From: an uncultured Lachnospiraceae bacterium
GTDB taxonomy: Bacteria; Bacillota; Clostridia; Lachnospirales; Lachnospiraceae
DNA: 64,000 nt
Direction: 5' to 3'
Assembly: GCA_947652735.1 (NCBI GenBank)
Contig: CANTEG010000003.1
Span: 124,001 to 188,000 of the forward strand
A program made the translations under genes and the position numbers. Positions 6,662 through 34,365 of this stretch are shown piece by piece (the stretch's first letter is position 1; each line of letters starts with the position of its first letter). The notes beneath the pieces are model-generated. The model saw nothing but the letters and a program-made list of their open reading frames with translations, was not told the origin of the DNA and ran no database searches.

Positions 6662-6690
6662 TTGACAGTATCTACAAAGTGTGCTACTGT
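6662..6690 (+). promoter_or_regulatory. Promoter of the dlt-like operon with a direct repeat
   Basis: A perfect TTGACA (6662-6667), 17-nt spacer and an extended -10 (TG at 6682-6683, TACTGT at 6685-6690). A 9-nt direct repeat, AGTGTGCTA (6678-6686) and AGTGTACTA (6694-6702), offset by 16 nt, overlaps the -10 and start region and could be a regulator site. The 5' leader is about 110 nt. Confidence 0.6.
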
Positions 6691-6808
6691 ATTAGTGTAC
6701 TATCAGAGTAATACAAAAGCGCAAATTATAAAACATAAACGAAAGCCTATTAATTTGTATACAGTTTGCAAAAGCTACAGTTTATAGTTATATTAAATGG
6801 AGACAGCT

Positions 6809-8332
6809 ATGAAAAATGTTTTAGAATATCTTGAGGAAAGCACTTTGAAGCACCCTGATAAGCAGGCGGCACGTGACGATAAGGAGTCGTGTACATATAA
6901 AGAGCTTGTTTCGGCGGCTAAGGGAATTGGAACACTGCTTGCAGGAAAGACCTGCGAAAGAATGCCTGTGGCAGTTTTTATGGATAAAAGCGTTGTCTGC
7001 CTTAAGGTGTTTATGGGAATTTTATATAGCGGCTGTTTTTACAGTCTGGTGGACCCGTCATTTCCTGACGAACGGGTCGCAAGTATGCTTGATACCCTTC
7101 AAAATGACATAGTTATAACGAAAAGGGAGCATGAACAAAAGCTTCGGGGGACAGGATATGATGGACAAATCATATTTGCCGAGGACTTAGATAACCTGCC
7201 GTGTGACGAGATTAGTTTATCGCATATTCGCGATATGGCAACGGACACGGATGGTGTTTACTGCAATTTTACATCAGGCTCCACAGGAGTGCCAAAGGGA
7301 GTTTTGGTGTGTCATCGTTCTATTATAGATTTTATTGATAACTTTACAGACCTGTTCCAAATTACAGGTGAGGATGTAATCGGAAATCAGGCACCATTTG
7401 ATTTTGATGTATCGGTAAAGGATATTTACAGCACTCTTAAGGTGGGAGCCACAATTGTGATGATACCGAAGTCATACTTTATGTTTCCAAATCAGGTTGT
7501 TGACATGCTGGATGAAAATAACGTGACAACGCTGATATGGGCAGTGTCTGCACTTTGTCTGTTAAATCGTCTGCATGGGCTTAAGTATAAGGTGCCTGCC
7601 AAAATCAACAAGATTTTGTTCAGCGGTGAGATGATGCCGATTAAACAATTGAATGGATGGCGGAACTGCTATCCTGATGCAATGTTCGTGAATCTGTACG
7701 GGCCTACGGAGATTACATGCAATTGTACCTATTATATTTTGGACAGGGAATTTGCAGAAGATGAAACGCTTCCGATGGGACATGCATTTCCAAATGAAAA
7801 GGTATTCCTGCTTGATGAAGCTGATAAAGAAATCACGCGTGACATGCCAAATATCACGGGGGAAATATGTGTTGCAGGGACATGTCTTGCCCTTGGATAT
7901 TACAACAATGAAGAAATGACCGAAAAAGCCTTTACGAAAAATCCGCTTGAAAAGCGGTTCCCTGAAATGATATATAGGACGGGTGACCTTGGATACCGAA
8001 ATGAGGATGGACTGCTGTTTTTTGCAGGAAGAAAGGATTTCCAGATTAAGCATATGGGTCACAGAATAGAACTTGAGGAAATAGAAAGCGTGCTTGGAAG
8101 TGTAAGTTTTGTTTGTCAGGGCTGCTGTTTCTTTGATGAAGAAAAAAGCAAGGTTGTTGCCTGCTATGTGGGAGACGGAGATAAACGGCAGATTGTGGAG
8201 GAAATGAGAAAAAAAGTGCCTGACTATATGGTGCCAAATGTATTTATTCCAATGGATGAGCTTCCAATTACAAAAAATGGAAAGACGGACAGGGCATTGT
8301 TAAAGACGCAGTACAAAAGCGGGAGGAAATAA
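6809..8332 (+). CDS. dltA: DltA-like adenylating ligase (amino acid:carrier protein ligase)
   Basis: A 507-residue ANL-family adenylation enzyme that should activate an amino acid with ATP and load it onto the carrier protein encoded at 9664. The motifs in order are TSGSTGVPKG (P-loop), NQAPFDFDVSVKDIY, NLYGPTE, YRTGDLG, GRKDFQIKHMGHRIELEEIE, and the C-terminal PITKNGKTDR with the catalytic Lys. Overall spacing is that of D-alanine:carrier ligase DltA. One difference stands out: the FCGE motif of characterised DltA is FSGE here (Ser272). That Cys helps form the D-alanine pocket in the Bacillus enzyme, so the substrate may differ. I prefer the ATG at 6809 because GGAG lies 6 nt upstream; an ATG at 6797 is in frame but has no ribosome-binding site. 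Confidence 0.85.
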   Translation: MKNVLEYLEESTLKHPDKQAARDDKESCTYKELVSAAKGIGTLLAGKTCERMPVAVFMDKSVVCLKVFMGILYSGCFYSLVDPSFPDERVASMLDTLQNDIVITKREHEQKLRGTGYDGQIIFAEDLDNLPCDEISLSHIRDMATDTDGVYCNFTSGSTGVPKGVLVCHRSIIDFIDNFTDLFQITGEDVIGNQAPFDFDVSVKDIYSTLKVGATIVMIPKSYFMFPNQVVDMLDENNVTTLIWAVSALCLLNRLHGLKYKVPAKINKILFSGEMMPIKQLNGWRNCYPDAMFVNLYGPTEITCNCTYYILDREFAEDETLPMGHAFPNEKVFLLDEADKEITRDMPNITGEICVAGTCLALGYYNNEEMTEKAFTKNPLEKRFPEMIYRTGDLGYRNEDGLLFFAGRKDFQIKHMGHRIELEEIESVLGSVSFVCQGCCFFDEEKSKVVACYVGDGDKRQIVEEMRKKVPDYMVPNVFIPMDELPITKNGKTDRALLKTQYKSGRK

Positions 8333-8333
8333 A

Positions 8334-9545
8334 GTGTACGAAAGCAAATTGATAGAAATTGCCGAAACCTACGGTACGCCAACATATGTATTTTTTGAGG
8401 AAGAATTAACGAAACAGGTTGATTTAATAAGAAAAATGCTTCCACAAGGTACAGGACTTTGCTTTGCAATGAAAGCAAATCCATTTTTGGCAGGAGCACT
8501 TGCGGGGCTTACCGACAAACTGGAGGTTTGTTCCTACGGAGAGTATGAAATATGCATACGGGAAGGAATCGCTGCGGATAGGCTGGTAGTGTCAGGAGTC
8601 AGCAAGACATTGGAACAGATGGAAGAAATCATGTGCTATAGCAAAGGCAGGGGCACATACACCATAGAGTCAAAACAGCAATATGAGGTTTTGAAAACAT
8701 GTGCAGGGAAGCTTGGTGTGAGACTGAACGTATTACTGAGACTTTCTTCGGGAAATCAGTTTGGTATGGATGAGGAAAGCCTGACGCAGGTTCTGTCACA
8801 GATTGACGGGGATGACCTTATGGATGTGGTGGGGCTTCACTATTATGGCGGAACACAGAAAAAAGCAGAAAAAGTGGAAAAAGAGCTGAAGCTTTTGGAG
8901 GAGGTTGCAAAACGGATTTCTGAAACGTATAAGCTTGACGGATTGGAGCTTGAGTATGGTCCGGGACTTCGGGTGTCATACTTTGAAAATGACAGTGCAG
9001 GCGAAAAGGAGTCGGCAGATGCGGAAAGACAATTGACAAAGCTTGCTTGTATGCTGGAGAAACTTCAGGGATATAACCAAGTTACAATAGAGCTTGGAAG
9101 GTTTCTGACGGCTTATTGCGGATGCTTTCTGACGCGGATTATGGATATTAAGCAGACAGGAAAGTCGGGATATATAATCGTAGATGGAGGAATTCATCAG
9201 ATAAATTATTATGGGCAGCTAATGGGAATGAAAAAACCATATATGAAGCTGATAGGAGAAAATGAAGTCAGGGAGGTAGGACAAAATGACGGCGGACAAG
9301 GCGGATACTCAGTCTGCGGCTCGCTGTGTACAGCAAATGACGTGCTGGTAAGGGACATTAAGCTTGACTGCCCTAAAACAGGAGATGTAATTTCCTTTGA
9401 ACGCTGTGGTGCATATTCGGTGACAGAGGGAATGGCATTGTTTTTAAGCAGGGATTTGCCACAGGTGCTTTACGTGAAGGCGGATGGCACGGTGGAAAGG
9501 CTGAGAAATAAAACTGAAATTAATATATTTAATGCAAAAGAGTAA
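8334..9545 (+). CDS. Fold-type III PLP decarboxylase-like enzyme within the dlt operon
   Basis: A 403-residue relative of diaminopimelate and ornithine/arginine decarboxylases (alanine-racemase-fold barrel plus beta domain). Lys47 in CFAMKANPF is the expected PLP lysine. Further landmarks are GLHYYGGTQ, the phosphate-binding ELGRFL, the active-site Cys-Asp block CGSLCTANDVL, and the late GAYSVTEG. All catalytic landmarks appear intact. The GTG start overlaps the ligase stop region and has GGGAGG upstream, so it is translationally coupled to dltA. Standard dlt operons lack such a gene. Its position suggests it produces or modifies the amino compound that the ligase activates. It is too divergent in context to call LysA. 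The substrate is unknown. Confidence 0.8.
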   Translation: MYESKLIEIAETYGTPTYVFFEEELTKQVDLIRKMLPQGTGLCFAMKANPFLAGALAGLTDKLEVCSYGEYEICIREGIAADRLVVSGVSKTLEQMEEIMCYSKGRGTYTIESKQQYEVLKTCAGKLGVRLNVLLRLSSGNQFGMDEESLTQVLSQIDGDDLMDVVGLHYYGGTQKKAEKVEKELKLLEEVAKRISETYKLDGLELEYGPGLRVSYFENDSAGEKESADAERQLTKLACMLEKLQGYNQVTIELGRFLTAYCGCFLTRIMDIKQTGKSGYIIVDGGIHQINYYGQLMGMKKPYMKLIGENEVREVGQNDGGQGGYSVCGSLCTANDVLVRDIKLDCPKTGDVISFERCGAYSVTEGMALFLSRDLPQVLYVKADGTVERLRNKTEINIFNAKE

Positions 9546-9613
9546 AAAGTTGTATTACAGTTTCTGCGAAAACCTGATATACAGCAACCCGTTTACTGAA
9601 AACAAATTTGACT

Positions 9614-9630
9614 TTATCAGAAGCTGATAA
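9614..9630. other. Small hairpin before dltC
   Basis: A perfect 7-bp inverted repeat, TTATCAG / CTGATAA, with a 3-nt loop, in the 118-nt gap between the decarboxylase and dltC. There is no T-tract, so it is more likely an mRNA stability or processing hairpin than a terminator. Confidence 0.4.
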
Positions 9631-9663
9631 GGAATGATGTTTAGAAAATAGGAGGATTTTACA

Positions 9664-9894
9664 ATGGAAAAATTATTGGAGATTTTAGAGGAAATTGCAC
9701 AGGGAGCAGATGTGAGGAATTGTACGACACTGATTGATGACCATATATTGGATTCCTTTGCAATATTGTCATTGGTATCAGAGTTGGAGGAGGAATTTGA
9801 CGTTGAGATATCACCGGCAGAGCTTATACCTGATAACTTTAACTCAGCGGAAAAGCTTTGGGAAATGGTTTGCAGACTGAAGGGAGATAATTAA
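9664..9894 (+). CDS. dltC: DltC-like carrier protein
   Basis: A 76-residue acyl-carrier-type protein. The phosphopantetheine attachment site is the Ser in ILDSFAILSL, the DSF form found in DltC proteins. The rest is the usual acidic four-helix carrier (LEEEFDVEISP). It would receive the aminoacyl group from the ligase at 6809 and hand it to the membrane MBOAT protein encoded next. An AGGAGG lies 8 nt before the ATG. It follows the decarboxylase by 118 nt and is separated from dltB by a single base. Confidence 0.92.
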   Translation: MEKLLEILEEIAQGADVRNCTTLIDDHILDSFAILSLVSELEEEFDVEISPAELIPDNFNSAEKLWEMVCRLKGDN

Positions 9895-9895
9895 A

Positions 9896-11386
9896 TTGTC
9901 ATATCATTTACTTACTTACAGTCTGCTGTTTCTGCCTGCAGTGATGCTTCTTTATCAGCTTACTCCCCAAAAGGTAAGATGGATAACTCTGCTGGCAGCA
10001 GACTACATATTTTTCTGGCTGATAAGCGGCGGACTTATTATTTGGATGCTTGCGGCAACTCTTGTCACATATGTCTGCGGTCGTGTGATTGCCTATGTGG
10101 TAGAACATTCTCCTGCAAAAGGCAAGGAACTGGTCAAACAAAAACGTGTAATACTTGGAATTGGCGTAATACTTACACTTGGAATGCTGGTAGTGTTCAA
10201 ATATTTAAAGGTTTTTGGCATTACATTTATAGCCCCGATTGGAATATCATACTATACACTTCAGACGATTTCCTATATGACTGACGTGTACAGGGGAACG
10301 GTGAAAGCGGAAACACATATCGGAAGACTGGCACTTTATTTAAGCTTTTTTCCTCAGATTATGGAGGGACCAATCAGCAGATACAGTGAGACTGCACACC
10401 CGCTCTTTTCAGGAAAACAGCTAGAGTTCCACAATATTGCATTTGGATATCAGAGGATTTTGTGGGGCTTATTTAAGAAGATGCTGATTGCAGACAGGCT
10501 GGCACCTGCAGTAATTAAGGTGTTTTCCGGTTATGAAAATTATGATGGTTCGGCAGTTGCTGTTGGAGTTGTTTTTTATACCATTCAGCTTTACATGGAA
10601 TTTTCGGGCTGTATGGATATTATAATCGGAACGGGAGAGGTATTTGGCATTGTTCTTCCTGAAAACTTCAGACAGCCATTCTTTGCAAGAAATGCATCTG
10701 ACTTTTGGCGCAGATGGCACATAACTCTTGGTACATGGCTGAAAGATTACGTCTTTTATCCAGTTTCCCTTGCAAAGCCGGTTAAGAAAGTGGCAAAGAG
10801 CGTCAAAGGTAAATTTGGAATTGGTGTCAGTAAATTTGTGGCACCGACTGCCGCACTATTTTGTGTATGGCTTTCAAACGGCATCTGGCACGGTGCAGGC
10901 TGGACGTATATATTTTATGGAATGTATTACTTTGTGTTAATATTTATTGAAAATATAACGGAGGCACCTGTTAAGAAGTTTGCAGAACGAAAGAATATAA
11001 ACATGGAGGGCGTTGCCTGTAAGGTACTTCGGGGCGTAAAGCTGTTTTTTATCGTAAATATCGGAGAACTGTTTTTCAGGGCGACCAGTGTTGCACAGGG
11101 CTTTTCCATGCTGGGACGTATTTTTGGAAAGTTCCATATATCTGCTTTGTTGGAGAGTAATTTAGGCATGGATGTGTATGATGTTGCTTTGGCATTTGTG
11201 GGAATTGTGATTGTCCTGCTTGTTGATATATTGCACGAAAAAGGCGTTTCTGTAAGAGAAAAAATTGCATCGCTTAGGCTGCCGCTTCGCTGGGGCGTAT
11301 GGTATGCTGTGATACTTAGCGTTATTATTTTGGGAGCATATGGTGCAGGATATACAGTGGTAGATATGATTTATGCCGCATATTAG
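9896..11386 (+). CDS. dltB: DltB-like MBOAT acyltransferase
   Basis: A 496-residue membrane-bound O-acyltransferase with many hydrophobic segments. The conserved block DFWRRWHITLGTWLKDYVFYP and the catalytic histidine region SNGIWHGAGWTYIFYG are both present. In dlt systems this protein takes the aminoacyl group from the carrier protein on the cytoplasmic side and moves it across the membrane for transfer to teichoic acid. It starts at a TTG one base after the dltC stop, with AGGGAG inside the dltC end as ribosome-binding site, so the pair is tightly coupled. Typical family length is 400-500 residues. Confidence 0.92.
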   Translation: MSYHLLTYSLLFLPAVMLLYQLTPQKVRWITLLAADYIFFWLISGGLIIWMLAATLVTYVCGRVIAYVVEHSPAKGKELVKQKRVILGIGVILTLGMLVVFKYLKVFGITFIAPIGISYYTLQTISYMTDVYRGTVKAETHIGRLALYLSFFPQIMEGPISRYSETAHPLFSGKQLEFHNIAFGYQRILWGLFKKMLIADRLAPAVIKVFSGYENYDGSAVAVGVVFYTIQLYMEFSGCMDIIIGTGEVFGIVLPENFRQPFFARNASDFWRRWHITLGTWLKDYVFYPVSLAKPVKKVAKSVKGKFGIGVSKFVAPTAALFCVWLSNGIWHGAGWTYIFYGMYYFVLIFIENITEAPVKKFAERKNINMEGVACKVLRGVKLFFIVNIGELFFRATSVAQGFSMLGRIFGKFHISALLESNLGMDVYDVALAFVGIVIVLLVDILHEKGVSVREKIASLRLPLRWGVWYAVILSVIILGAYGAGYTVVDMIYAAY

Positions 11387-11419
11387 CAGGTGATACAAAG
11401 GTACGAAAGAGGTGTTTTT

Positions 11420-12382
11420 ATGAAAATAAATAAAAATGTTGTAAAGTCAGTGGGCTTTTTGCTTGGACTTTTTGTTTTACTGCTTGCAATGTCGGCTGTG
11501 TTTCACAGAAAAAACTTTGTCAATGTATATGACAGGGAGTCTGTGGAACGTAAAATAAATGAGGTGGATGCGGAAAAGGATAATTCTCTTGAGGTTTTAT
11601 TTTGTGGTGACAGTGAGTGTTACTCCAGCTTTTGTCCTACGCTGTTGTTCTCAGAGTTCGGACACACCTCCTATGTATGTGGAACATCCGCACAGAGACT
11701 TTGTGACACATATACCATATTAGAGGAGGTATTTAAAACCCAGTCTCCTAAAGTAGTTGTCATAGAGACAAATTGTTTTTACAGAGGGGCAAAATCCTCA
11801 GGTGACAGCAACGACAGTGTGCTTAATTTTTTGACAAATCGTTTTTCCGTATTTGCATATCACTCGGACTGGAAGAATTTTGTGGGCAGTTTTACGGGAA
11901 AAGGAACAGGGAAAAAAGAAAAGAATGATTTAAAGGGCTTTATAGTAAGAAACAGTGTAAATCCATATAAAGGTGGACGTTACATGGTTGAGTGTGAGGA
12001 TGAGGAGGAGTTTCCAACTGACACATATACCTATTTGGATAAGATTTTAAAGCTTTGCAATGATAATAATACAAAGCTGTTGCTGATAAGTAGTCCATCC
12101 CCGAAAAACTGGACATACGCAAGACATAACAGCGTAAAAAAGTGGGCAAACCAGTCGCAGGTTGGTTATCTGGATTTGAATCTGCAAAACAATTTGGGTA
12201 TAGATTGGGATACAGACACAAAGGATGGCGGAGATCACGTAAATTATGCAGGAGCGAAAAAGGTGACAAGATTTATCGGGGCATACTTAAGTGAAACATA
12301 CGGACTTCCTGATTTGCGGGAGGAACAAGATTATGCAGACTGGAAAGAGAACTGCAAAGCAACCTATGACTTAGAGAAATAG
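11420..12382 (+). CDS. dltD: DltD-like SGNH-fold transfer protein
   Basis: A 320-residue protein with an N-terminal membrane anchor (VGFLLGLFVLLLAMSAVF) and an extracytoplasmic SGNH-like domain. The nucleophile block is LFCGDSECYSS and the C-terminal DxxH is GGDHVNYAG. DltD proteins act outside the membrane, next to DltB, in the final transfer of the amino acid to teichoic acid. I use the ATG at 11420, preceded by AGAGGTG; an in-frame GTG at 11390 would add ten hydrophilic residues and has no clear ribosome-binding site. It ends the operon. Similarity to canonical DltD is by fold motifs and context, not by obvious full-length identity. Confidence 0.82.
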   Translation: MKINKNVVKSVGFLLGLFVLLLAMSAVFHRKNFVNVYDRESVERKINEVDAEKDNSLEVLFCGDSECYSSFCPTLLFSEFGHTSYVCGTSAQRLCDTYTILEEVFKTQSPKVVVIETNCFYRGAKSSGDSNDSVLNFLTNRFSVFAYHSDWKNFVGSFTGKGTGKKEKNDLKGFIVRNSVNPYKGGRYMVECEDEEEFPTDTYTYLDKILKLCNDNNTKLLLISSPSPKNWTYARHNSVKKWANQSQVGYLDLNLQNNLGIDWDTDTKDGGDHVNYAGAKKVTRFIGAYLSETYGLPDLREEQDYADWKENCKATYDLEK

Positions 12383-17759: not shown

Positions 17760-18536
17760 ATGAAAAAGAGTTTAGAAAACTTTTGGAAATATAGAAATCT
17801 TTTAAAAGAACTCGTAAAAAAGGGAATTAAGTTAAAATACAGGCGTTCATATTTAGGTATCGTGTGGTCACTGCTTGAACCATTACTTCAGACGCTTGTT
17901 CTGACAATTGTTTTCGGTACATTGTATGGCAGAGAGGATAAAACATTTCCTGTTTATATACTGACTGCAAGACTTTTGTATGGCTTCTTTTCCACATCAA
18001 CAAGGTCGGCAGTAAAGTCAATTCGCTCTAATTCAGGACTGATAAAAAAAGTATATGTGCCTAAATACTTATATCCGCTTTCGGTAGTGCTTTATGATTA
18101 CGTAATCTTTTTAATTTCACTGGTTGTATTGTTCTTCACAAGCATGATTTTAGGGGTTCATCCGACTATATATCTGCTACAGGCACCGATAGCCCTGCTG
18201 CTTATATTTATGTTAAGTTATGGTGTCAGCATGATTATGGCGACCATAGGTGTATTTTTCAGGGATATGGAGTACTTGTGGTCAGTTGCACTCATGCTTG
18301 TAATGTACACTTGTGCAATTTTCTATTATCCTGAAAAGCTTTTGGAAAGCAAGTGGGCATTTTTATTGAAGTACAATCCACTATACTGTATCATTGACAT
18401 TTTCAGAAGCTCCGTGTTCGGCAGGCTGATAAATATGGACTATTTAATTTACGCTTCAGCGTTTAGTATTATTACCATCCTGATAGGATGTGTTTATTTC
18501 AAAAAGGAACAGGATAAATTTATATTGAACATATAG
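17760..18536 (+). CDS. tagG: TagG-like polysaccharide/teichoic acid ABC exporter, permease
   Basis: A 258-residue ABC-2 permease of the Wzm/TagG type. The amphipathic N-terminus ends in the family motif LVKKGIKLKYRRSYLGIVWSL, followed by about six hydrophobic segments. With the ATPase 12 nt downstream it forms an exporter that flips lipid-linked wall polymer to the outside. The association with two TagD genes and several glycerophosphotransferases supports a teichoic-acid role. The TagG symbol reflects context and family; a general Wzm name would also be valid. Confidence 0.88.
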   Translation: MKKSLENFWKYRNLLKELVKKGIKLKYRRSYLGIVWSLLEPLLQTLVLTIVFGTLYGREDKTFPVYILTARLLYGFFSTSTRSAVKSIRSNSGLIKKVYVPKYLYPLSVVLYDYVIFLISLVVLFFTSMILGVHPTIYLLQAPIALLLIFMLSYGVSMIMATIGVFFRDMEYLWSVALMLVMYTCAIFYYPEKLLESKWAFLLKYNPLYCIIDIFRSSVFGRLINMDYLIYASAFSIITILIGCVYFKKEQDKFILNI

Positions 18537-18547
18537 AGGTATGATAT

Positions 18548-19285
18548 ATGGGTAAACCGGCAATTGTCGTTGATAATGTAAGTATAAAATTTAATTTGAG
18601 CAAAGAAAAAATTGAAAGTCTTAAGGAGTATATCATTAAGATGATAAAGCACCAAATCCAGTATAAGGAATTTTGGGCACTCACGGATGTTTCCTTTACA
18701 ATTGAAAAGGGAGACCGTGTGGGGATTTTGGGACTGAACGGTGCAGGAAAGAGTACATTGCTGAAAATAATTTCAGGTGTTTTCAAGCCTACAACGGGAA
18801 CAGTAAAAAGATATGGGAATATTGCACCGCTTCTTGAACTGGGGGCAGGCTTTGCATCTGAGTATACGGGAAAGGAAAATATATTTTTATACGGAGCTAT
18901 TTTGGGATACAGCAAGGCATTTATAAAAGAAAAATATGATGAGATAGCTGAATTTTCTGAGCTGGGTGAGTTTTTGGATGTTCCGCTTTCCAGCTATTCA
19001 TCAGGTATGAAAGCGAGACTTGGTTTTTCAATCGCCACGGTTGTATCACCTGAAATACTCATTCTGGATGAGGTTTTGTCGGTAGGAGACGCAAAATTCA
19101 AGAAAAAGAGCGAAAACAAAATAAAGAGTATGATGACGGACGGAGTTACGGTGCTTCTTGTTTCACATTCATTAAAGCAGGTAAAGAACATATGCAATAA
19201 GGCAATGATACTTGACAAGGGAAAGCTTATTGCATATGGTGATATAGATGACATAGCACCTCAATATGAAAAAATGACGGAATAA
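18548..19285 (+). CDS. tagH: TagH-like polysaccharide/teichoic acid ABC exporter, ATPase
   Basis: A 245-residue ABC ATPase with Walker A GLNGAGKST, the polysaccharide-exporter motif LLELGAGF, signature YSSGMKARLGF, Walker B EILILDEVLSVGD and H-loop VSHS. It lacks the extra C-terminal domain seen in Bacillus TagH and in the second exporter ATPase of this window (46276). It therefore probably accepts substrate without cap recognition. It is 11 nt after the permease and ends one base before the first glycerophosphotransferase, consistent with a single operon. Confidence 0.9.
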   Translation: MGKPAIVVDNVSIKFNLSKEKIESLKEYIIKMIKHQIQYKEFWALTDVSFTIEKGDRVGILGLNGAGKSTLLKIISGVFKPTTGTVKRYGNIAPLLELGAGFASEYTGKENIFLYGAILGYSKAFIKEKYDEIAEFSELGEFLDVPLSSYSSGMKARLGFSIATVVSPEILILDEVLSVGDAKFKKKSENKIKSMMTDGVTVLLVSHSLKQVKNICNKAMILDKGKLIAYGDIDDIAPQYEKMTE

Positions 19286-19286
19286 G

Positions 19287-20573
19287 ATGAAAAAAGAAAT
19301 CATTAAACAAAGAATAAAAAATAATGGATTGATATATACTTTATTTTACTATTTATGCCGTATTGTTACACTTGCTGGTGAGAAATGCGTACATTTTTTT
19401 ATCAGGCACTTTGGCGGCTTGAATGAGACTTATATTGTTTTCAAAAACAGGCAGCAACAGGATTTTACAGATAATGCGAGAGCACTTTTTGAGTATTTGT
19501 ATGAAAACGGATATTCAAAAAATTATAAATTTATCTGGCTTGTTTCTTCTAAGAAAAGCATAGATAGGAAAAAATACAAAAATATAACCGTTGCAGTTGC
19601 TGAAAATAAATTTGGGTGGACAAGCCCAAGAGCATTTTACTACGGATGTACGGCAAAGTATTTTTTTTATACAAACAACACTGCAAACCTGAACAGGGGA
19701 GCTGCAAAGGGACAGCTTGTGGTCAATTTGTGGCATGGCTGTGGCTATAAGGATTCCACCCATAAAAACAAAAAAATTAAGTACAGCAAATCCATGGAAA
19801 TGTTTGACTTGGCACTTGTGCCGGGCGAGCTTTTTGTGGAAGCAAAGGCAAGATACTGGGAGTGTGACAGGAGCAAAATACTTGGAATCGGATATCCGAG
19901 GTATGACTGGCTGCTTCAAAAGGACCTTGATAAAAAAGCGATAATGAAAACTCTTTTTGGGGAATCCATGCAAAACCGAAGACTTATTTTGTGGATGCCG
20001 ACCTTTCGAAAGGCATCGGACGGCTCGGGGTTTGCAGAGGGAGATATTGGGCTGGAATACGGAATACCGATTGCAGGCGACGATGAGAGCTTACAGGAGC
20101 TTGACAAAATATGTGGTGAGACAGGTTGTCTTCTTGTTATAAAGCGGCATCCGCTTCAGACACCTGTGCCAGGCGGGCGGAAATTTAAGAATATAAAATT
20201 TATAGATAACAAATTGCTTGATAAACGGGATGTATTATTGTATCATTTTATAGCAGTAAGCGATGCTCTTATTTCTGATTATTCCTCTGTTGCAGTAGAT
20301 TATATATTACTTGACAGGCCAATCGGATTTGCGGTTGGAGATATTGAACAATATAAGCAGAAACGTGGATTTATATTTGATAATCCGATGGATTATATGC
20401 CGGGAGAAATTATTTATACCTTTGAGGATTTGAAGCACTTTCTATCGGACATATGTCAGGGCATGGACAAATACGTTGCGGCAAGGCATAAGCTATTGCC
20501 GATTATGCACAATCAATGCGAAAATTACCGTGCACGGATTATAAAAAATCTGGGAATAAAAAAGGAGAGGTAA
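19287..20573 (+). CDS. CDP-glycerol:glycerophosphate glycerophosphotransferase (TagB/TagF family), first copy
   Basis: A 428-residue single-domain enzyme of the TagB/TagF family, which transfers glycerol phosphate from CDP-glycerol to a lipid-linked acceptor at the cytoplasmic face. The conserved blocks are NLWHGCGYKD (catalytic His), IKRHP and SDYSSVAVDY. The N-terminal basic, partly hydrophobic helix fits peripheral membrane attachment. It is followed 7 nt later by tagD, the enzyme that makes CDP-glycerol. Whether it acts as primase (TagB-like) or polymerase (TagF-like) cannot be told by motif. It is clearly paralogous to the gene at 21014. Confidence 0.9.
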   Translation: MKKEIIKQRIKNNGLIYTLFYYLCRIVTLAGEKCVHFFIRHFGGLNETYIVFKNRQQQDFTDNARALFEYLYENGYSKNYKFIWLVSSKKSIDRKKYKNITVAVAENKFGWTSPRAFYYGCTAKYFFYTNNTANLNRGAAKGQLVVNLWHGCGYKDSTHKNKKIKYSKSMEMFDLALVPGELFVEAKARYWECDRSKILGIGYPRYDWLLQKDLDKKAIMKTLFGESMQNRRLILWMPTFRKASDGSGFAEGDIGLEYGIPIAGDDESLQELDKICGETGCLLVIKRHPLQTPVPGGRKFKNIKFIDNKLLDKRDVLLYHFIAVSDALISDYSSVAVDYILLDRPIGFAVGDIEQYKQKRGFIFDNPMDYMPGEIIYTFEDLKHFLSDICQGMDKYVAARHKLLPIMHNQCENYRARIIKNLGIKKER

Positions 20574-20580
20574 AAACACA

Positions 20581-20997
20581 ATGAAAAAAATAGTTGGATA
20601 TACGCAAGGGACATATGATATGTTTCACATAGGACATTTAAATTTGCTAAAAAATGCAAAGAGACATTGTGATTATCTGATAGCGGGCATCAACAGCGAT
20701 GAGCTTGTGGCAAGCTACAAGGAAAAACGCCCTATCATTCCTTTGGAGGAGCGTGTGGCAATCGTTCGGGCAATCAAGTATGTTGACGAGGTTGTTGTAA
20801 CGACGACTCTTGACAAGATGGAAATGTGGGATATCCTTAGGTTTGATGAAATATATATCGGTGATGACTGGAAAGGAAATGCCAGATGGGAAGAAACCGG
20901 AAAGGTTTTGGAGACAGTCGGAGCAAGATTGGTGTTTTTACCATATACAAAGGACACATCATCAACGTTACTTAGACAAAAGTTAAACGAGTATTAA
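20581..20997 (+). CDS. tagD: Glycerol-3-phosphate cytidylyltransferase-like protein, first copy
   Basis: A 138-residue nucleotidyltransferase making CDP-glycerol from CTP and glycerol 3-phosphate. The HxGH motif lies in GTYDMFHIGHLNLL (about residues 9-22). IGDDW is conserved, but the C-terminal RTxGISTT block of classical TagD reads KDTSSTLLR here. That makes it more divergent than the second copy at 29738, so another cytidylyltransferase substrate is possible. It is embedded between two glycerophosphotransferase genes, which supports CDP-glycerol. Confidence 0.82.
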   Translation: MKKIVGYTQGTYDMFHIGHLNLLKNAKRHCDYLIAGINSDELVASYKEKRPIIPLEERVAIVRAIKYVDEVVVTTTLDKMEMWDILRFDEIYIGDDWKGNARWEETGKVLETVGARLVFLPYTKDTSSTLLRQKLNEY

Positions 20998-21013
20998 TCG
21001 GAACGGAGAAACT

Positions 21014-22282
21014 ATGGGCAACATAAAAAAGAAATTAAAAAAATTCAAAGAACTTGTAGTGAACCTGAAAAAGGATGGGGACTGGAAAGCCTTTTGGGGT
21101 AATATGTCTTTCCAGATTTATGATAACGGTAAGATTAACCGATTGAAAAAAAAGCCGCCAAAGCTTGTCATGGACCGAATTGTCTTTGAGACGGGAAATG
21201 ATTTTACGGATAATGGCAGGGCGCTTTTTGATTACATGATTGAAAAGGGCTACAATGAAAAATATGAGCTTGTATGGCTTGTTCACGAACCTGATAAATA
21301 TAAAAAATATAAAGCAAAGAACGTTACATTTGTAAAGAGCTTTAAGACCCATACGCAGCTTAGAACTGCAAAGTCACATAAATATGCCCAAAGTGCGCAT
21401 TATATTTTTTATACTACAGCGGTTAACTGGGTGAAAATGTCACGTGCCAATCAGGTCTTTATTGATTTGTGGCATGGATGCGGATACAAGGCAAATAAGC
21501 TGGAACGAAAAGTATTTTTTGATTACTGTCTTGTCCCGGGAGATATATTTGTAGAGACAAAAAGAGAATTTTTCCACTGTGCCACGAGAAAGCTTCTGCC
21601 GCTTGGATATCCGAGATATGACCAGATGCTTCGGGGCTCGGAACGGGCAAAACAGTATGTGGAAAGACTGCTCAAGGAAGCGTCGGCAAACAAGTTTATA
21701 TTGTGGATGCCTACATTCAGGCATTCGGAAAGTGAACGTCTGAATGAGGAGACATTAAACAATGAATTTAACATTCCTATCATAGATGACAAGGAAAAGC
21801 TTCTTGAACTGGACGCTTATTGTCGTGCTCTTGGAGTGCTTCTTGTTATTAAGAGACATTATCTTCAGGTTCAGTATGATTTTGGAGATAACAAGCTTAC
21901 TAACATTGTTTATATAGAGGATGCGGATTTGGAAAAAGAGGATGTTCAGCTTTATGAGTTTATACATTACTCGGATGCCCTCGTTTCTGATTATTCTTCC
22001 GTTGCAATCGACTATATTCTGATGGATAAGCCGATTGGTTTTACGCTGGAGGATTTTGAGGCATACTCTGTCGCAAGAGGCTGGGTATTTGATGAACCCC
22101 TTGAGTATATGCCGGGAAGCCATATATACAACATGGACGAAATGAAACAATTTGTTAAGGATATAAAAGAAGGCGAAGATAAGCACAAGGCGAAGCGTGA
22201 TACGGTGCGTGAAAAAACACATAATGTATCAGAGAATTACTGTCAGAGAGTTCTTGATTATTTTAATATTACGGTTGACTAA
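21014..22282 (+). CDS. CDP-glycerol glycerophosphotransferase (TagB/TagF family), second copy
   Basis: A 422-residue paralogue of the 19287 enzyme with the same landmarks: DLWHGCGYKAN, VIKRHYLQ, SDYSSVAIDYILMDKPIGF. The His after IKR (IKRHY) is kept although the following Pro is not. It lies 16 nt after tagD. Two adjacent paralogues suggest separate primer and polymer steps, or two different acceptor linkages, in one teichoic acid. Membership of the family is certain; the division of labour is inference. Confidence 0.9.
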   Translation: MGNIKKKLKKFKELVVNLKKDGDWKAFWGNMSFQIYDNGKINRLKKKPPKLVMDRIVFETGNDFTDNGRALFDYMIEKGYNEKYELVWLVHEPDKYKKYKAKNVTFVKSFKTHTQLRTAKSHKYAQSAHYIFYTTAVNWVKMSRANQVFIDLWHGCGYKANKLERKVFFDYCLVPGDIFVETKREFFHCATRKLLPLGYPRYDQMLRGSERAKQYVERLLKEASANKFILWMPTFRHSESERLNEETLNNEFNIPIIDDKEKLLELDAYCRALGVLLVIKRHYLQVQYDFGDNKLTNIVYIEDADLEKEDVQLYEFIHYSDALVSDYSSVAIDYILMDKPIGFTLEDFEAYSVARGWVFDEPLEYMPGSHIYNMDEMKQFVKDIKEGEDKHKAKRDTVREKTHNVSENYCQRVLDYFNITVD

Positions 22283-22314
22283 ATGCTTTGTATATACGAG
22301 GATGGAGAATTTAT

Positions 22315-23502
22315 ATGAAGATATGTATTTGGGTTACAAAAATATTTGAACAGGGTGGAACAAAAAGAGTGGTAACGCTTCTTGCCAATGAGCTGGTGAA
22401 GGAGCATGACCTTACAATTATGTGTTATCAGGACAGATTCGCTGAGGATTTGGAGATGTATCACATGAGCGAGGACATAAAGCTTGACTTTATAGATAAC
22501 TTTAACTTTGTGGACAAGCGTCGCACCCCTGCAAATATAAGAAGAAGCATCATACAGAAAATGAATAGCAAGTGGGGTACTTTTAACAAGAAAAAGCATA
22601 ATGCAAAGCTGGCAGATGCTATTTTCCCTAAGAAAACCCAGGATAGATGGGTCGAATATTTAAATGAAAAGAATTATGATGTTATTATTACCACGGCAGG
22701 CTTAAGCTTAAGGCTCGGTATGATTTCAGACAGGCTGAATGCCAAGACTGTGGGCTGGCAGCACAACTGCTATGATGGATATATTAATACGCCGGGAGTT
22801 GTGTTCTGGAAGCAGGAGGAGCTTCTCAAGGAGTACCTGCCAAAGCTTGACAGATACATTGTACTTAGTGAGTACGACAAGAGAGACTACAAGAAGAAGC
22901 TTGGAATTGATACGGAGGTAAAGATAAATCCGAGAAGCTTTACAACAGACGTAAAATGCAATCCTGAATCAAAACGGTTTTTGGTATGTGCAAGATTTGT
23001 TTATGCAAAGGGTCTTGATTTGCTGATGGATTCCTTTGCCAAATTCTGCCAGACTGATGATGAGTGGACGATAGATATTATAGGAGATGGTGCATTGTGG
23101 AATAAAACAATTGCACTTGCCAAAAAGAAAAAGGTAAAGGAACGGGTAATGTTTTATGGCTATACAACCAATGCAGAAAAGTATTACCAAAATGCATCCG
23201 TATTTTTGCTCCCGTCAAGATGGGAGGGCTGGCCTATGGTTATTATGGAGGCATTTGAATATGGACTGCCTGTTATTGCGTACCATACCGGTTCCATGGA
23301 TTTGATGATTGATGACGGGAAAACAGGACTTTTGCCAACGGCATTTGATACGACAAAGTTTGCACAGGCGATGAGCCAAATTGCACATGATGATGAACTA
23401 AGAAGAAAAATGTCCGAGAATGCAATTAAAAAGTCTGATGATTTTGATATCAAGTATGCGGTTGAGGATTGGAACAACCTGTTTAACAGACTTGTAAAAT
23501 AA
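22315..23502 (+). CDS. Glycosyltransferase family 4
   Basis: A 395-residue GT-B enzyme. The N-terminal domain starts MKICIWVTKIFEQGGTKRVV, the glycine-rich sugar-nucleotide loop type found in GT4. The C-terminal domain has VCARFVYAKGLDLLM and the donor-binding PSRWEGWPMVIMEAFEYGLP with the EX7E glutamates. It should transfer a sugar from a nucleotide donor to the growing polymer in the cytoplasm. The ATG at 22315 has GGAG 8 nt upstream and gives the normal N-terminus; an in-frame start at 22288 is not supported. Donor and linkage are unknown. Confidence 0.9.
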   Translation: MKICIWVTKIFEQGGTKRVVTLLANELVKEHDLTIMCYQDRFAEDLEMYHMSEDIKLDFIDNFNFVDKRRTPANIRRSIIQKMNSKWGTFNKKKHNAKLADAIFPKKTQDRWVEYLNEKNYDVIITTAGLSLRLGMISDRLNAKTVGWQHNCYDGYINTPGVVFWKQEELLKEYLPKLDRYIVLSEYDKRDYKKKLGIDTEVKINPRSFTTDVKCNPESKRFLVCARFVYAKGLDLLMDSFAKFCQTDDEWTIDIIGDGALWNKTIALAKKKKVKERVMFYGYTTNAEKYYQNASVFLLPSRWEGWPMVIMEAFEYGLPVIAYHTGSMDLMIDDGKTGLLPTAFDTTKFAQAMSQIAHDDELRRKMSENAIKKSDDFDIKYAVEDWNNLFNRLVK

Positions 23503-23533
23503 AAACTGGGTTTGCGGTTGGTACATTTCTTAT

Positions 23534-23562
23534 GGAACCTGCTAAGGAATGGGCTGATGGTA
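23534..23562 (+). repeat. Intergenic repeat copy B
   Basis: GGAACCTGCTAAG, AATGGGC and GATGG in register with the other copies. It begins 32 nt after one GT4 gene and ends 18 nt before the next. It differs from copy E at only a few positions. Confidence 0.6.
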
Positions 23563-23580
23563 AAATATAAGGGTTGATAT

Positions 23581-24930
23581 ATGAAAATTGTTCATTATTT
23601 TTTGGGATTTCCACCATACAGAACAGGAGGCTTGACCAAATTTGCCGTTGATTTAATGAGTGAGCAGGCAAAAATGGGACATGACATATTTGCGTTGTGG
23701 CCGGGTAAAATAAGCATACTCCGTAAGGATGTAAGAATTGTCCATCGTGGAAGCGTTGGAGATATAGACAGCTATGAGCTTGTAAATCCTGTGCCTGTTT
23801 CACTGGATAAGGGAATTTCGGAGCCTGAGCGGTTTATTGCTACGGAAAAACATCCTGTGTATGATAAGTTTTTTTCGAAGCTTAAACCTGATGTGATACA
23901 TGTGCATACGCTTATGGGACTGCATGAAGCTTTTTTTATAGCGGCGAAAAGGCACAATATACGGACGATATACACAACCCATGATTACTTTGGTATTTGT
24001 TTAAAGGCATATTTATATACAGACGGAAGCGTATGTGATACATGCGAAAAGGGAGCAAAATGTATGAATTGTAACAGGGACGGACTGTCATACAAAAAGA
24101 TAGTTCTGCTGCAATCACCCCTTTACCGTATGCTGAAGGACTTCGCGTTGGTGCGGGCATTAAGAAGAGCATACCTGAACAAAAAGCCGAATGGAAACAA
24201 CAGCGACATTGCCTTAAATGGGAACGGGAGTGAGGATACCCGTAAGAGGGCAGAGAAATATAGCGAACTGATTTATTATTATAAACGATTATTTTCGTAT
24301 ATAGATTTCTATCACTTTAACTCGGGTACGGCAAAAGAAATATATACGGATTTTATGCCTGACATAAAGGGAACGGTAATTACGATATGTCACGCTGATA
24401 TTTCGGACAGACGTAAACGCAAAACATATACGAATGATAAAATCAGATATACAATGCTGGCGCCTGCAAAGACACACAAAGGCTTTGAGGTTGTAAGAAA
24501 AGCGATGAATGAGCTGTGGCAGAATGGAAAAAGAAATTTCAGCCTCACATTATATACGGAGCCTGATAAGACAGAACCATATATGGATATACACAAGCAT
24601 GGATATTCATATAAAGACTTGAACAAAATATTCGATGAAACGGACGTCCTGCTTGTGCCAAGTATTTGGTATGAAACATTTGGGTTTACGGTTCTTGAGG
24701 CAATCAGCTATGGTGTCCCTGTGATTGTAACTGACCATGTGGGAGCAAAGGATATTATAGGGGAAGGCGGAGCAGTAATCCCCGCAGGCTCTTATCAGGA
24801 ACTGAAACATTTACTTGAGGGGCTTGATGCAAAGCGGCTTGCAGCGTGGAATGATGCTGTGCTTGCCATAGATGGGATAAAGACAATGCCTGAACTGGCA
24901 GGGGAAATTGAAGAAATTTACAATTTATAA
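23581..24930 (+). CDS. Glycosyltransferase family 4 with a cysteine cluster
   Basis: A 449-residue GT-B glycosyltransferase. It begins MKIVHYFLGFPPYRTGGLTK, has the N-domain HVHTLMGLHEAFF and TTHDYFGIC segments, and the C-terminal VPSIWYETFGFTVLEAIS EX7E block. An insertion near residues 145-160 contains four cysteines (VCDTCEKGAKCMNCN), a C-x2-C-x5-C-x2-C pattern that could bind a metal. A weakly conserved, Asn-rich linker follows around residue 205. It sits 78 nt after the previous GT4, with repeat copy B between them. The sugar is unknown. Confidence 0.88.
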   Translation: MKIVHYFLGFPPYRTGGLTKFAVDLMSEQAKMGHDIFALWPGKISILRKDVRIVHRGSVGDIDSYELVNPVPVSLDKGISEPERFIATEKHPVYDKFFSKLKPDVIHVHTLMGLHEAFFIAAKRHNIRTIYTTHDYFGICLKAYLYTDGSVCDTCEKGAKCMNCNRDGLSYKKIVLLQSPLYRMLKDFALVRALRRAYLNKKPNGNNSDIALNGNGSEDTRKRAEKYSELIYYYKRLFSYIDFYHFNSGTAKEIYTDFMPDIKGTVITICHADISDRRKRKTYTNDKIRYTMLAPAKTHKGFEVVRKAMNELWQNGKRNFSLTLYTEPDKTEPYMDIHKHGYSYKDLNKIFDETDVLLVPSIWYETFGFTVLEAISYGVPVIVTDHVGAKDIIGEGGAVIPAGSYQELKHLLEGLDAKRLAAWNDAVLAIDGIKTMPELAGEIEEIYNL

Positions 24931-24967
24931 AGAGTGTGTGAATATGTGGAATAAACATGTTCCTTAA

Positions 24968-24998
24968 GAAACTTGCTAAGCAATGGGCGGATGTTCCA
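24968..24998 (+). repeat. Intergenic repeat copy C
   Basis: AGAAACTTGCTAAG, CAATGGGCGG, ATGTTCC. It matches copies B and E at most positions; CTGC/GCAG pairing in copy E becomes TTGC/GCGG here, keeping G-T pairs. It ends 16 nt before the preferred start of the Stealth gene. The apparent ORF extension across it to 24957 is therefore probably not coding. Confidence 0.6.
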
Positions 24999-25013
24999 GG
25001 GATGAGGAAAATT

Positions 25014-26003
25014 ATGAGTGATATAGATGTTGTGATTGCATGGGTAGATGGCAACGACAGGGAATGGCAAAATGAAAAGGAAAAATATGCACCGCCATTT
25101 GAGCGGGAGGCTTCCAGTAACATCAGATACAGGGAGTGGGATAACCTTCACTATATATTCAGGGGAATTGAAATATTTATGCCTTGGGTTAGGACTGTTC
25201 ATTTTGTGACATGGGGACATGTACCAAAGTGGCTCAATACTGCTTGCCCAAAACTTCATGTGGTAAAACATCAAGATTTTATTCCAAAGGAGTATCTTCC
25301 TACATTTAACGCAAATGCAATCGAACTTAATTTTCATAGAATCCCAAATTTGGCAGAGCAGTTTATTTATTTTAATGATGATATGTTCGTAGTGCGAAAA
25401 ACGGAAGCGGAAGACTTTTTCAAGGATGGTCTGCCGAGGGACATGGCATGTATAAGCCCACAGCCTATATACAGAAATTCCATTATGAACATTGAACTGA
25501 ATAACCTGAAAATAATAAACGATTATTTTACAAGGGATGATATCAAAAAAAATAAAAGGAAATGGATGAAACCGGGTCTGTATGGTCAGTATGCATTACG
25601 CACCCTTTTATTTTTACAGTTCAAATCCATCATTGGGATTTTTCAGCCCCATGTGCCATATACACTTCTAAAGAGTACCTATGCAACCTTATGGGATAAG
25701 GAATTTAAAATATTAGATGATACATGCAAAAGAAAGTACAGGGATATGGCTGACAATAATGTGTGGCTTATGCGGTCGTGGCAGCTTGTATCGGGTAGCT
25801 TTATTCCCAGAAGTCGTAAATTTGGACAACTGATTTCGGCTTCTGATTTAGAGGGAGTCAAACATTTTTTGCACCATGAGAAAAAGTGCCACCTTGTATG
25901 CATCAATGATGATGATACAGTTGAGAATTATGAAGAGACAAAAAATAAAGTAAACAATGAGCTTGAAAGGATTCTTCCAAATAAAAGCAGCTTTGAGAAG
26001 TAA
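25014..26003 (+). CDS. Stealth-family sugar-phosphate transferase
   Basis: A 329-residue Stealth protein (hexose-1-phosphoryltransferase type, related to GlcNAc-1-phosphotransferase and capsule polymerases). Conserved region 1 is IDVVIAWVDGNDREW at the N-terminus. Region 2 includes NIRYREWDNLHYIFRGIE, FVTWGHVPKWL and EQFIYFNDDMFV. Region 3 contains HVPYTLLKSTYATLW, and region 4 follows at NNVWLMRSWQL. It would create a sugar-phosphodiester linkage in the polymer. I place the start at the ATG of MSDIDVV (25014); a longer ORF from 24957 would run across the dispersed repeat. Sugar identity is unknown. Confidence 0.9.
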   Translation: MSDIDVVIAWVDGNDREWQNEKEKYAPPFEREASSNIRYREWDNLHYIFRGIEIFMPWVRTVHFVTWGHVPKWLNTACPKLHVVKHQDFIPKEYLPTFNANAIELNFHRIPNLAEQFIYFNDDMFVVRKTEAEDFFKDGLPRDMACISPQPIYRNSIMNIELNNLKIINDYFTRDDIKKNKRKWMKPGLYGQYALRTLLFLQFKSIIGIFQPHVPYTLLKSTYATLWDKEFKILDDTCKRKYRDMADNNVWLMRSWQLVSGSFIPRSRKFGQLISASDLEGVKHFLHHEKKCHLVCINDDDTVENYEETKNKVNNELERILPNKSSFEK

Positions 26004-26043
26004 GGAGAAAATAAGCCGGTGTTTAATGAAGGAGGCAGATAAC

Positions 26044-27174
26044 GTGAAGTTTTCAAAAGATGATACATGGGCAGTGAAGGGCTTTGCAATTTGTATAATG
26101 CTGTTTCATCATTTGTTTTTGGATGCAGATAGATTTAAGGGATATGCAATTAATTTTGCACCCTTTGGGAAAACATGGGTGGTGTGTGTGGCTGCCATGT
26201 TTAAGGTATGTGTCAGTATGTTTGCGTTTCTCACGGGTTACGGGCTTTTTTTGTCATACAATAAATTGATGAAAAATAAGCATGACGGGCTTACAACGGA
26301 TAAGTGGTGTCTGTCAAGATATATCAAAACAATGTCGGGTTTTTGGTTTATATACATCGTCTGCTTTGCTGTGACAATGCTGATTGACAGACTACCTGTA
26401 ATTAAGTATTTCAAAGGTAATGGGCTTGTAAAAGGGACGTTGTATTGCCTGATTGACTTTTTCGGGATGGCTTCACTGCTAAAAACACCCGATATGTGCG
26501 GTACATGGTGGTACATGGCAGCAGCAACGATTTTTATTATGCTGGTTCCTGTATTATGTCATGTGACAAAACGGACGGGCTGGCTTCCAATACTAGTTTT
26601 AGCACTTTTATATCCGAGGCTGATAGGCAGGACTTATATGGGTGGAACAAACGCAATGACATTTGTGCCTGCGTTAATTCTTGGCATGATGTTTGCAAAT
26701 TATGAAGTATTTGAGCATCTTGGTGCCAAGTTTGATAAAATGGGAAAGTTTTGGAAGACAATAGTTTGTTGGCTTATTTCCATAGTTGGTATCGTAGCTG
26801 CTGTCGCAGTACAAGATAATTTTGAAAAAAATGAAATGTGGAGGATAAAGCTGCTGTTTGTACCGCTTATATTCATTTTTTTCATTAAATATTGTCTGGC
26901 CCCAATCAAGTGGGTGAATGCTTTTTTGGTATTTATGGGAAAACGTTCCATGACGATTTTCATGACCCACACATTTTTGAGATCCATATATTTAAAGGAC
27001 TGGATATATTCACAGGGGCATTTTCTTAAGGTGTACCTTGCACTGTTTGTCTCTTCGCTTATACTTGCCATAGTGCTGGATGTGATTAAGCATGTGATAG
27101 GACTGGATAAGGCAGTTGATAAGTTGTGTGAAAAAATCATGAAAGGCACGCCAAAGACATCTGTTGCAAAGTAA
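26044..27174 (+). CDS. Acyltransferase family 3 (membrane O-acetyltransferase)
   Basis: A 376-residue integral membrane acyltransferase-3 protein with about ten hydrophobic segments. The N-terminal catalytic histidine region is AICIMLFHHLFLDADRF, and the family C-terminal block MGKRSMTIFMTHTFLRSIYL is present. Such proteins O-acylate exported or membrane-bound polysaccharides using cytoplasmic acyl donors. The GTG at 26044, 8 nt after AAGGAGG, is the likely start. The ORF is open back to 25957 inside the Stealth gene, but that extension lacks a ribosome-binding site. It probably decorates the wall polymer made by its neighbours. Confidence 0.88.
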   Translation: MKFSKDDTWAVKGFAICIMLFHHLFLDADRFKGYAINFAPFGKTWVVCVAAMFKVCVSMFAFLTGYGLFLSYNKLMKNKHDGLTTDKWCLSRYIKTMSGFWFIYIVCFAVTMLIDRLPVIKYFKGNGLVKGTLYCLIDFFGMASLLKTPDMCGTWWYMAAATIFIMLVPVLCHVTKRTGWLPILVLALLYPRLIGRTYMGGTNAMTFVPALILGMMFANYEVFEHLGAKFDKMGKFWKTIVCWLISIVGIVAAVAVQDNFEKNEMWRIKLLFVPLIFIFFIKYCLAPIKWVNAFLVFMGKRSMTIFMTHTFLRSIYLKDWIYSQGHFLKVYLALFVSSLILAIVLDVIKHVIGLDKAVDKLCEKIMKGTPKTSVAK

Positions 27175-27207
27175 TGTTAGTTTATACAAAAAAGAGGAAG
27201 GAAATAA

Positions 27208-28155: not shown

Positions 28156-28186
28156 ATTCAGATAAATTATTCTAGCGGAGAGGAGA

Positions 28187-28206
28187 ATGATGCAAATGTG
28201 CATCAT
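28187..28206. other. Hairpin just before the GT-C-like gene
   Basis: A perfect 8-bp inverted repeat, ATGATGCA-AATG-TGCATCAT, ends 11 nt before the ATG at 28218. It leaves only a weak GGGG ribosome-binding site and could restrain translation. Confidence 0.4.
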
Positions 28207-28217
28207 GGGGAAATAGG

Positions 28218-30127: not shown

Positions 30128-30142
30128 TTCAGGGGGATATCA

Positions 30143-34305: not shown

Positions 34306-34365
34306 CATATTGATGTGCAAGCTGACAATTGGGTTTGTTTTATTTATATAAGAAAGAGGGATAAA

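Follow-up and report, generated by a model that had tools for sequence, protein, structure and literature searches.

The usual view of Dlt systems is that they attach D-Ala, and D-Ser has been described as entering wall teichoic acid through dlt (PMC12071552). In antibiotic pathways, amino acids can be decarboxylated while bound to a carrier: BtrK decarboxylates glutamyl-S-BtrI (PMC7857480), VinO decarboxylates 3-methylaspartyl-VinL, which is loaded by VinN, and FlvN uses Asp (PMC11284099). Here, we analyzed a window of 64,000 nucleotides from an uncultured Lachnospiraceae bacterium (assembly GCA_947652735.1, contig CANTEG010000003.1, positions 124,001 to 188,000), in which a dlt-like operon carries a gene for a pyridoxal phosphate (PLP) decarboxylase between those of the ligase and the carrier. 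This operon is a real and conserved variant of the Dlt kind. In our judgement, the chances are about even that it encodes a Dlt-like export system building its own acyl group on the carrier, in which a loaded amino acid would lose a carboxyl group on the carrier and then be exported in ester form.

Organization of the Operon

Five co-directional and tightly packed genes (6797-12382, + strand) follow each other in the order ligase, PLP decarboxylase, carrier, MBOAT, and SGNH protein:

6809..8332, + strand, amino-acid adenylating ligase, DltA-like but not DltA (open reading frame (ORF) listed from 6797, probable start 6809)
8334..9545, + strand, fold-type III PLP decarboxylase, BtrK-like by profile, without the diaminopimelate-type motifs xRPxxY and CExxD
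9664..9894, + strand, small carrier protein, phosphopantetheine Ser in DHILDSFAI
9896..11386, + strand, MBOAT acyltransferase, DltB-related, with a fused C-terminal acyl-shuttle-like motif, MIYAAY
11420..12382, + strand, SGNH-type protein with a hydrophobic N-terminus, motifs GDSECYSS and GGDHVNY (ORF listed from GTG 11390, probable start 11420)

The initial annotation had recognized a full set of parts of the teichoic-acid-aminoacylation type (ligase, carrier, MBOAT, SGNH), and all of them were found, co-directional and closely spaced. It had also described a decarboxylase-like gene coupled between ligase and carrier, which was borne out by the single base that separates the ligase stop from the decarboxylase start and by the conserved placement of the gene; the gap between decarboxylase and carrier is 118 bases. 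The ligase ORF extends from 6797 to 8332, with an ATG at 6809 that has GGAG just 5' of it, and the N-terminal consensus of 16 relatives contains NVLEYLE, favoring a start at 6809. With this likely start, the Ser of the FSGE motif is residue 272, as had been proposed (276 if counted from 6797). No promoter support was found for 6662-6796, and promoter-like matches in 6300-12900 were near chance (22 vs. 17.2, standard deviation 4.4).

The Ligase Differs from DltA in Family and Pocket

The window ligase scored 295.7 bits with the DltA equivalog model TIGR01734, far below the cut-off of 559.85, and the ligase, carrier, and MBOAT of the window all scored under the curated dlt cut-offs. A quick tree was built from 69 ligases of the family sample, for which ORFs shorter than 400 or longer than 760 aa were left out, as were the rows L111, L119_1691, and L140. 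Eight DltA-type ligases, four of them over the DltA cut-off and four at 489-546 bits, formed a separate clade with a branch support of 100. The clade of the window ligase comprised 39 rows (SH-aLRT 96), 33 with an adjoining decarboxylase gene and six without. A DltA over the cut-off was found in 4 of 150 family genomes. When the window genome (G000, 2.77 Mb) was searched with AMP-binding_C, only this ligase and one other gene, reading like an acyl-CoA synthetase, were found, so that no standard DltA was seen there.

Pocket positions were assigned from motifs and are given in PheA numbering. The window ligase has D235, V236, K239, I278, L299, S301, L322, C330, and N331, whereas the DltA-type relatives mostly have D, L, M, V, L, C, T, V, and A; Met is thus changed to Lys, Cys to Ser, Thr to Leu, and Ala to Asn. 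In DltA of B. cereus, the pocket for the D-Ala methyl group is formed by Leu, Met200, and Cys268 (PMC8972799), and of these residues the Met and the Cys are replaced in the window by Lys and Ser, which is not a D-Ala pocket. The initial annotation had rightly pointed to FSGE in place of the FCGE of DltA and to the presence of its Cys in the Bacillus D-Ala pocket (PMC8972799); FCGE occurs in seven of the eight DltA-type ligases of the same genome family, the remaining one having LAGE. Family score, phylogeny, and pocket all support the view that this enzyme is not a D-Ala ligase.

The altered pocket is conserved. From at least 589 ligase relatives in named genomes, the best 80 were kept as a set of named loci and examined besides the family loci. 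As they were retrieved with the patterns P[TS]E[IV]TCNC and GNQAPFDF, the conservation of C330 and N331 in this set is partly built in. Lys at 239, a position absent from the search patterns, was found in all 80. FSGE, Lys, and Asn occurred together in 31 of the 34 decarboxylase-bearing ligases of the tree set (ORFs under 450 aa, i.e., L047, were left out of the ligase comparison of decarboxylase loci).

Other pockets were also observed. The decarboxylase-adjoining ligases of L040 (6745-8268) and L043 (10215-11717) have FSGS with Arg at 239, lack the amine-binding Asp235, and perhaps act on a different substrate; the L044 ligase falls in another clade. Sister clades of Dlt-like operons (a first set with L117, L118, L122, L123, L130-L135, and L138, and a second with L115, L124, and L126-L128) show FGSE with Lys239 and Met331, and FAGE, and no decarboxylase was found in the DNA fetched for them, except in L044 (first set). 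There may be several distinct non-alanine systems.

The Decarboxylase Is Not LysA

The window decarboxylase scored 146.1 bits with the LysA model TIGR01048 (cut-off 297.9), and its top NCBIfam match was TIGR03099 (165 bits, cut-off 478). Both decarboxylase domains were matched, and Ala_racemase_N was also over its cut-off (38.5 vs. 24.1 bits). Three further members are present in the window genome (C10, 278.5 bits; C8, 153.4; C1, 77.5), of which C8 sits in a polysaccharide-like cluster. C10, with NLMRPAMY and LCENND, is the better LysA, yet is itself under the curated 297.9. It has the motifs xRPxxY and CExxD, which presumably bind the far end of diaminopimelate, whereas the window enzyme has neither. 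None of 100 distinct decarboxylase relatives has the xRPxxY of the diaminopimelate decarboxylase (DAPDC) type, and in 97 of them Thr or Ser follows the Cys where the C10 LysA has Glu, the other three being unmatched by the motif. The Cys and Asp of the CxxxD motif were invariant across 16 relatives.

When a profile of 16 sequences was compared with solved structures, BtrK came first (199.5 bits), followed by 6knh (labelled probable DAPDC, 170) and 2p3e (166). The window enzyme is thus closest to BtrK by profile and is encoded together with a ligase and a carrier, as is expected of the BtrK/VinO type. Judged from sequence, the enzyme is a regular component of the system and distinct from LysA. 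The decarboxylase of L044 (1114 aa) was left out of the alignments; its frame (6713-10057) runs into surface Ig-like and transglutaminase-like domains and reflects either a fusion or an assembly fault.

Spread, Conserved Coupling, and Variants of the Module

The decarboxylase was found in 35 of 150 family genomes (E up to 1e-40) and in 86 of 397 (E up to 1e-50). In the 35 family loci fetched, a ligase was adjoining in 33, a carrier in 32, and an MBOAT in 26, some of the misses being contig ends; the ligase was missed in L051 and in the contig-edge L061. Among the named loci, 71 of 80 had the decarboxylase, and a carrier was visible in 63 of these 71 in the DNA fetched. Coupling of ligase and decarboxylase at these rates goes far beyond what chance would give. 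The two sets overlap, six decarboxylases being shared by their last 80 residues, and distinct counts are therefore given; the set of 121 loci used for neighborhood searches includes overlaps, refetched copies, and L237, which is without the operon, and several of its loci are short. The titles of the named loci were mostly of the Lachnospiraceae/Clostridia type, with single ones from Bacteroides, Bacilli, Oscillospiraceae, and Faecalibacterium. The closest named relative among the matches listed was L153, from an uncultured Lachnospiraceae bacterium, with a ligase 86% identical.

In eight of the 80 named loci (L187, L209, L212, L213, L217, L218, L222, and L230), an LpxD-like hexapeptide acyltransferase gene lies directly 5' of the ligase gene. 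Seven have a carrier, the fragment of L218 being truncated, and no MBOAT was found in the DNA fetched for any of the eight. LpxD-type enzymes use acyl-ACP. Domains were scanned in L212, and of the other seven loci only the hexapeptide protein of L230 was scanned. The L212 hexapeptide protein scored 122 bits with LpxD (cut-off 242.5), and its cluster, with a nucleotide-sugar dehydrogenase, a Gfo/Idh oxidoreductase, a DegT aminotransferase, and a WecB-type epimerase, resembles one for UDP-aminosugar synthesis. In these loci without MBOAT, the ligase-decarboxylase-carrier trio looks like a portable module donating an aminoacyl group from a carrier.

Conserved neighbors were also considered as a clue to the substrate. 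A PurA-like gene, named from its letters, recurs 5' in nine loci, and other housekeeping-looking genes were seen in some lineages; these were taken as mere genome position.

Ser272 Is a Clade Marker

The initial annotation had regarded Ser272 as the telling residue and had proposed that its co-occurrence with the decarboxylase be checked. The raw association is strong: in the tree set, Ser was found in 33 of 34 ligases with a decarboxylase and in 6 of 35 without (Fisher 2e-12). Row L114 is a contig end of G001, and as the decarboxylase of that genome sits at the end of another contig, the row was entered among those with a decarboxylase. However, Ser changed once on the ligase tree and the decarboxylase six times, and an independent-pairs test showed essentially no independent co-variation. 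Ser272 is thus a marker of the clade and was rejected as a sign of the decarboxylase. The larger changes of the pocket are Lys204 and Asn305.

The MBOAT and SGNH Proteins

The carrier is DltC-like (40 bits, cut-off 68), and the MBOAT scored 156 bits with LTA_dltB (cut-off 375). The SGNH gene had no match in Pfam or NCBIfam and was called by its motifs GDSECYSS and GGDHVNY alone; a DltD-like role may be inferred for its product. All the motifs of an MBOAT-SGNH pair are present in the window, namely LSNGIWHGAGW with the MBOAT His, GDSECYSS, GGDHVNY, and MIYAAY. The acyl-shuttle motif FXYXXF is carried by DltX in Dlt and by the MBOAT in carrier-less pathways (PMC12148441). The C-terminus of the window MBOAT, MIYAAY, departs from it at both Phe, and relatives end in FIYAQF, LIYAGF, and similar sequences; x[IVM]Yxx[FY] terminates 79 of 80 distinct MBOATs over 450 aa, those of 450 aa or less having been left out. 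On the coding strand of 6300-12800, the MBOAT end was the sole match in a motif search for a DltX-like short frame, which also gave two antisense frames and in which a diverged DltX could be missed.

Proposed Mechanism and Alternatives

Building on the observed genes, their conserved coupling, the changed pocket, the motifs, and the separation of the two enzymes from DltA and LysA, we infer the substrate, step order, product, and acceptor as follows. The ligase would adenylate a dicarboxylic amino acid (Asp is the likeliest, Glu next) through its side-chain carboxyl and load it on the carrier, Asp200 probably holding the amine and Lys204 the free alpha-carboxylate. The PLP enzyme, judging from its family and neighbors, would then strip the alpha-carboxylate from the carrier-bound amino acid to give beta-alanyl-S-carrier (or GABA-S-carrier; GABA, gamma-aminobutyric acid). 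The MBOAT would move this group onto the Tyr within its C-terminal motif, and the SGNH protein would then esterify it to an envelope polymer, for which the teichoic-acid-like polymer of a cluster located downstream is a plausible candidate.

A non-D-Ala ligase together with a steady non-LysA decarboxylase makes a non-alanine, probably decarboxylated group the best reading. The same two observations uphold the earlier proposal of a decarboxylated or otherwise non-alanine group, with the modification that decarboxylation likelier follows loading than precedes activation. Among single products, beta-alanine is the most likely, though the evidence for it is weaker than that for the mechanism. One hint comes from L070 in genome G101, where the ligase and decarboxylase genes lie behind panB, panC, and coaBC (8738-15779) and form a candidate alternative source of beta-alanine; no carrier or MBOAT was recognized beside them. 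Among 98 PanC-bearing genomes, the decarboxylase was present in five of eight without PanD vs. 17 of 90 with PanD (p 0.013, ancestry uncorrected); one of the eight, G098, has only a partial PanC match, and in the other four of the five the operon is not beside panC. As coaBC is directly 5' of the ligase in L037 as well as in L070, it could equally point to phosphopantetheine supply. The PanD pattern and the L070 arrangement thus point weakly to beta-alanine.

Several observations weigh against loading followed by decarboxylation on the carrier, or against beta-alanine as its product. Taken singly, the window decarboxylase scored the DAPDC entries 2yxx and 2p3e slightly above BtrK (85.7 and 84.2 vs. 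77.0). The window ligase shows no particular closeness to known beta-aminoacyl ligases: the structure 7dq5, labelled b-aminoacyl-ACP synthetase, reached 255 bits vs. 302 for DltA and 305 for one LgrA module. No PanD match was found in G101, but this genome is 93% complete and PanD may be missed, and panB and panC were present in 1 of 121 loci searched. An anti-correlation with PanD over all genomes was rejected (PanD in 17 of 86 genomes with the decarboxylase vs. 75 of 311 others). Finally, the same or nearly the same pocket was found without a decarboxylase in the DNA fetched for six tree ligases and for nine of the 80 named loci, so the pocket neither requires nor alone proves decarboxylation. 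Some of these decarboxylase-free members have other candidate tailoring genes in their clusters, two among the six tree ligases and one among the nine named loci:

L116, 2-850, formyltransferase
L121, 6422-7303, formyltransferase
L228, 6008-6859, GNAT acetyltransferase, between ligase and carrier

Their presence suggests that a single loaded amino acid can undergo more than one kind of tailoring.

Other explanations were weighed against this scheme. The decarboxylase might first produce a free amine (beta-alanine or GABA from Asp or Glu) that the ligase then activates, as the position behind pantothenate genes in G101, with no PanD match, would allow; decarboxylase-free systems could likewise take beta-alanine from PanD. 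We consider this order unlikely, since the conserved pocket Lys would suit an acid rather than a plain amine, BtrK, the closest characterized decarboxylase by profile, acts on a carrier (PMC7857480), and a second source of beta-alanine would be redundant in the window genome, which has PanD. Still less probable is a ligase loading meso-diaminopimelate, of which a LysA-like enzyme would decarboxylate the far end to give lysyl esters. Such esters occur on wall polymers of some actinomycetes, the decarboxylase has a LysA superfamily score of 146 bits, and in the window the operon is followed directly by dapF and dapL. However, the relatives checked are without the DAPDC-type motifs that the genome's own LysA-like gene has, and of 121 loci searched, L153 alone had dapF; the link to diaminopimelate or lysine through dapF-dapL was rejected, as this neighborhood is not conserved.

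We regard as equally improbable a system that attaches an intact amino acid and in which the PLP protein acts as a racemase or in some other role. The Ala_racemase_N match and the pocket shared with decarboxylase-free sister systems would fit this idea, against which stand the matches to both decarboxylase domains and the invariance of the CxxxD Cys and Asp. An ordinary D-alanylation operon next to an unrelated decarboxylase would explain the overall parts list, which is that of dlt, but this is very unlikely given that ligase, carrier, and MBOAT are all under the dlt cut-offs, that the Met and Cys of the D-Ala pocket are replaced (PMC8972799), and that the decarboxylase is conserved in place.

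More broadly, a widespread Lachnospiraceae-type group may decorate envelope polymers with beta-alanyl or GABA esters, rather than D-alanine, in this way, the portable module also serving the N-acylation of amino sugars; we advance this only tentatively and think it somewhat more likely wrong than right. If true, common gut and rumen bacteria would carry a different cationic surface ester, of relevance to charge and to recognition by the host, and annotations drawn from resemblance to DltA would be misleading.

A Candidate Acceptor-Polymer Cluster Downstream

Ten proteins of the stretch from 17760 to 47598 were scanned. This cluster is a candidate source of the acceptor polymer, although it is not a proven part of the system:

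17760..47598, + strand, candidate acceptor-polymer cluster
17760-19285, ABC-2 transporter and ATPase, TagGH-like by arrangement
starts 19287, 21014, 31723, and 34315, four proteins of the CDP-glycerol glycerophosphotransferase type
46276-47598, Wzt-type ATPase

Two of these proteins (31723-34305 and 34315-37875) are large composites with CDP-glycerol glycerophosphotransferase and glycosyltransferase domains, and a Stealth-type protein (Stealth_CR1, CR2, and CR4 matches) is encoded at 24957-26003. A second MBOAT gene and an SGNH-like gene lie at 37892-40336 within the cluster. The SGNH-like gene is without a Pfam match, its motifs having been seen by eye, and the MBOAT ends in FVYFQF, which matches FXYXXF; no carrier gene was seen adjoining. 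Further downstream (54908-63982), four tandem genes encode secreted-looking long repeat proteins that read alike (752, 723, 755, and 734 aa).

Comparison with Known Systems

In titles and abstract openings of the literature searched, a search that left subscription journals mostly outside and is no proof of unpublished status, such an operon was not found described. In transferases of the PatA/PatB type, which pair an MBOAT with an SGNH protein, an FXYXXF-like motif lies on the MBOAT C-terminus, as in the window, but these pathways are described without a carrier and as using acyl-CoA, whereas the window encodes a carrier (PMC12148441). A carrier combined with a shuttle motif fused to the MBOAT is not mentioned in the excerpts of that paper.

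VinN-VinL-VinO, of the vicenistatin pathway, and FlvN offer a parallel in which a stand-alone adenylating enzyme, a carrier, and a PLP decarboxylase acting after loading work together (PMC11284099). The likeness is drawn from published descriptions of these enzymes, and VinN-VinL-VinO feeds a polyketide synthase whereas the window operon has an envelope acyltransferase. In the butirosin pathway, a PLP decarboxylase acts on a glutamyl carrier, and its enzyme BtrK is the best solved-structure match of the window decarboxylase profile; BtrK-BtrI differs in belonging to an antibiotic side-chain pathway, and BtrI is presumably loaded by an unrelated ligase. The exosortase A-associated models TIGR03098 (ligase) and TIGR03099 (decarboxylase), which we take to be paired in exosortase loci, both match the window, at 191 and 165 bits vs. 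cut-offs of 592 and 478. The proposed system would join carrier-bound decarboxylation with MBOAT-SGNH envelope acylation, which were found described only apart.

The Dlt system (DltA, DltC, DltB, DltD, and DltX) likewise has a ligase, a carrier, an MBOAT, and an SGNH protein in a single operon, and its donor is a carrier-bound amino acid, as we propose for the window. The shuttle motif is on DltX in Dlt and on the MBOAT C-terminus in the window, and the window operon further differs from Dlt by its extra decarboxylase and its altered ligase pocket.

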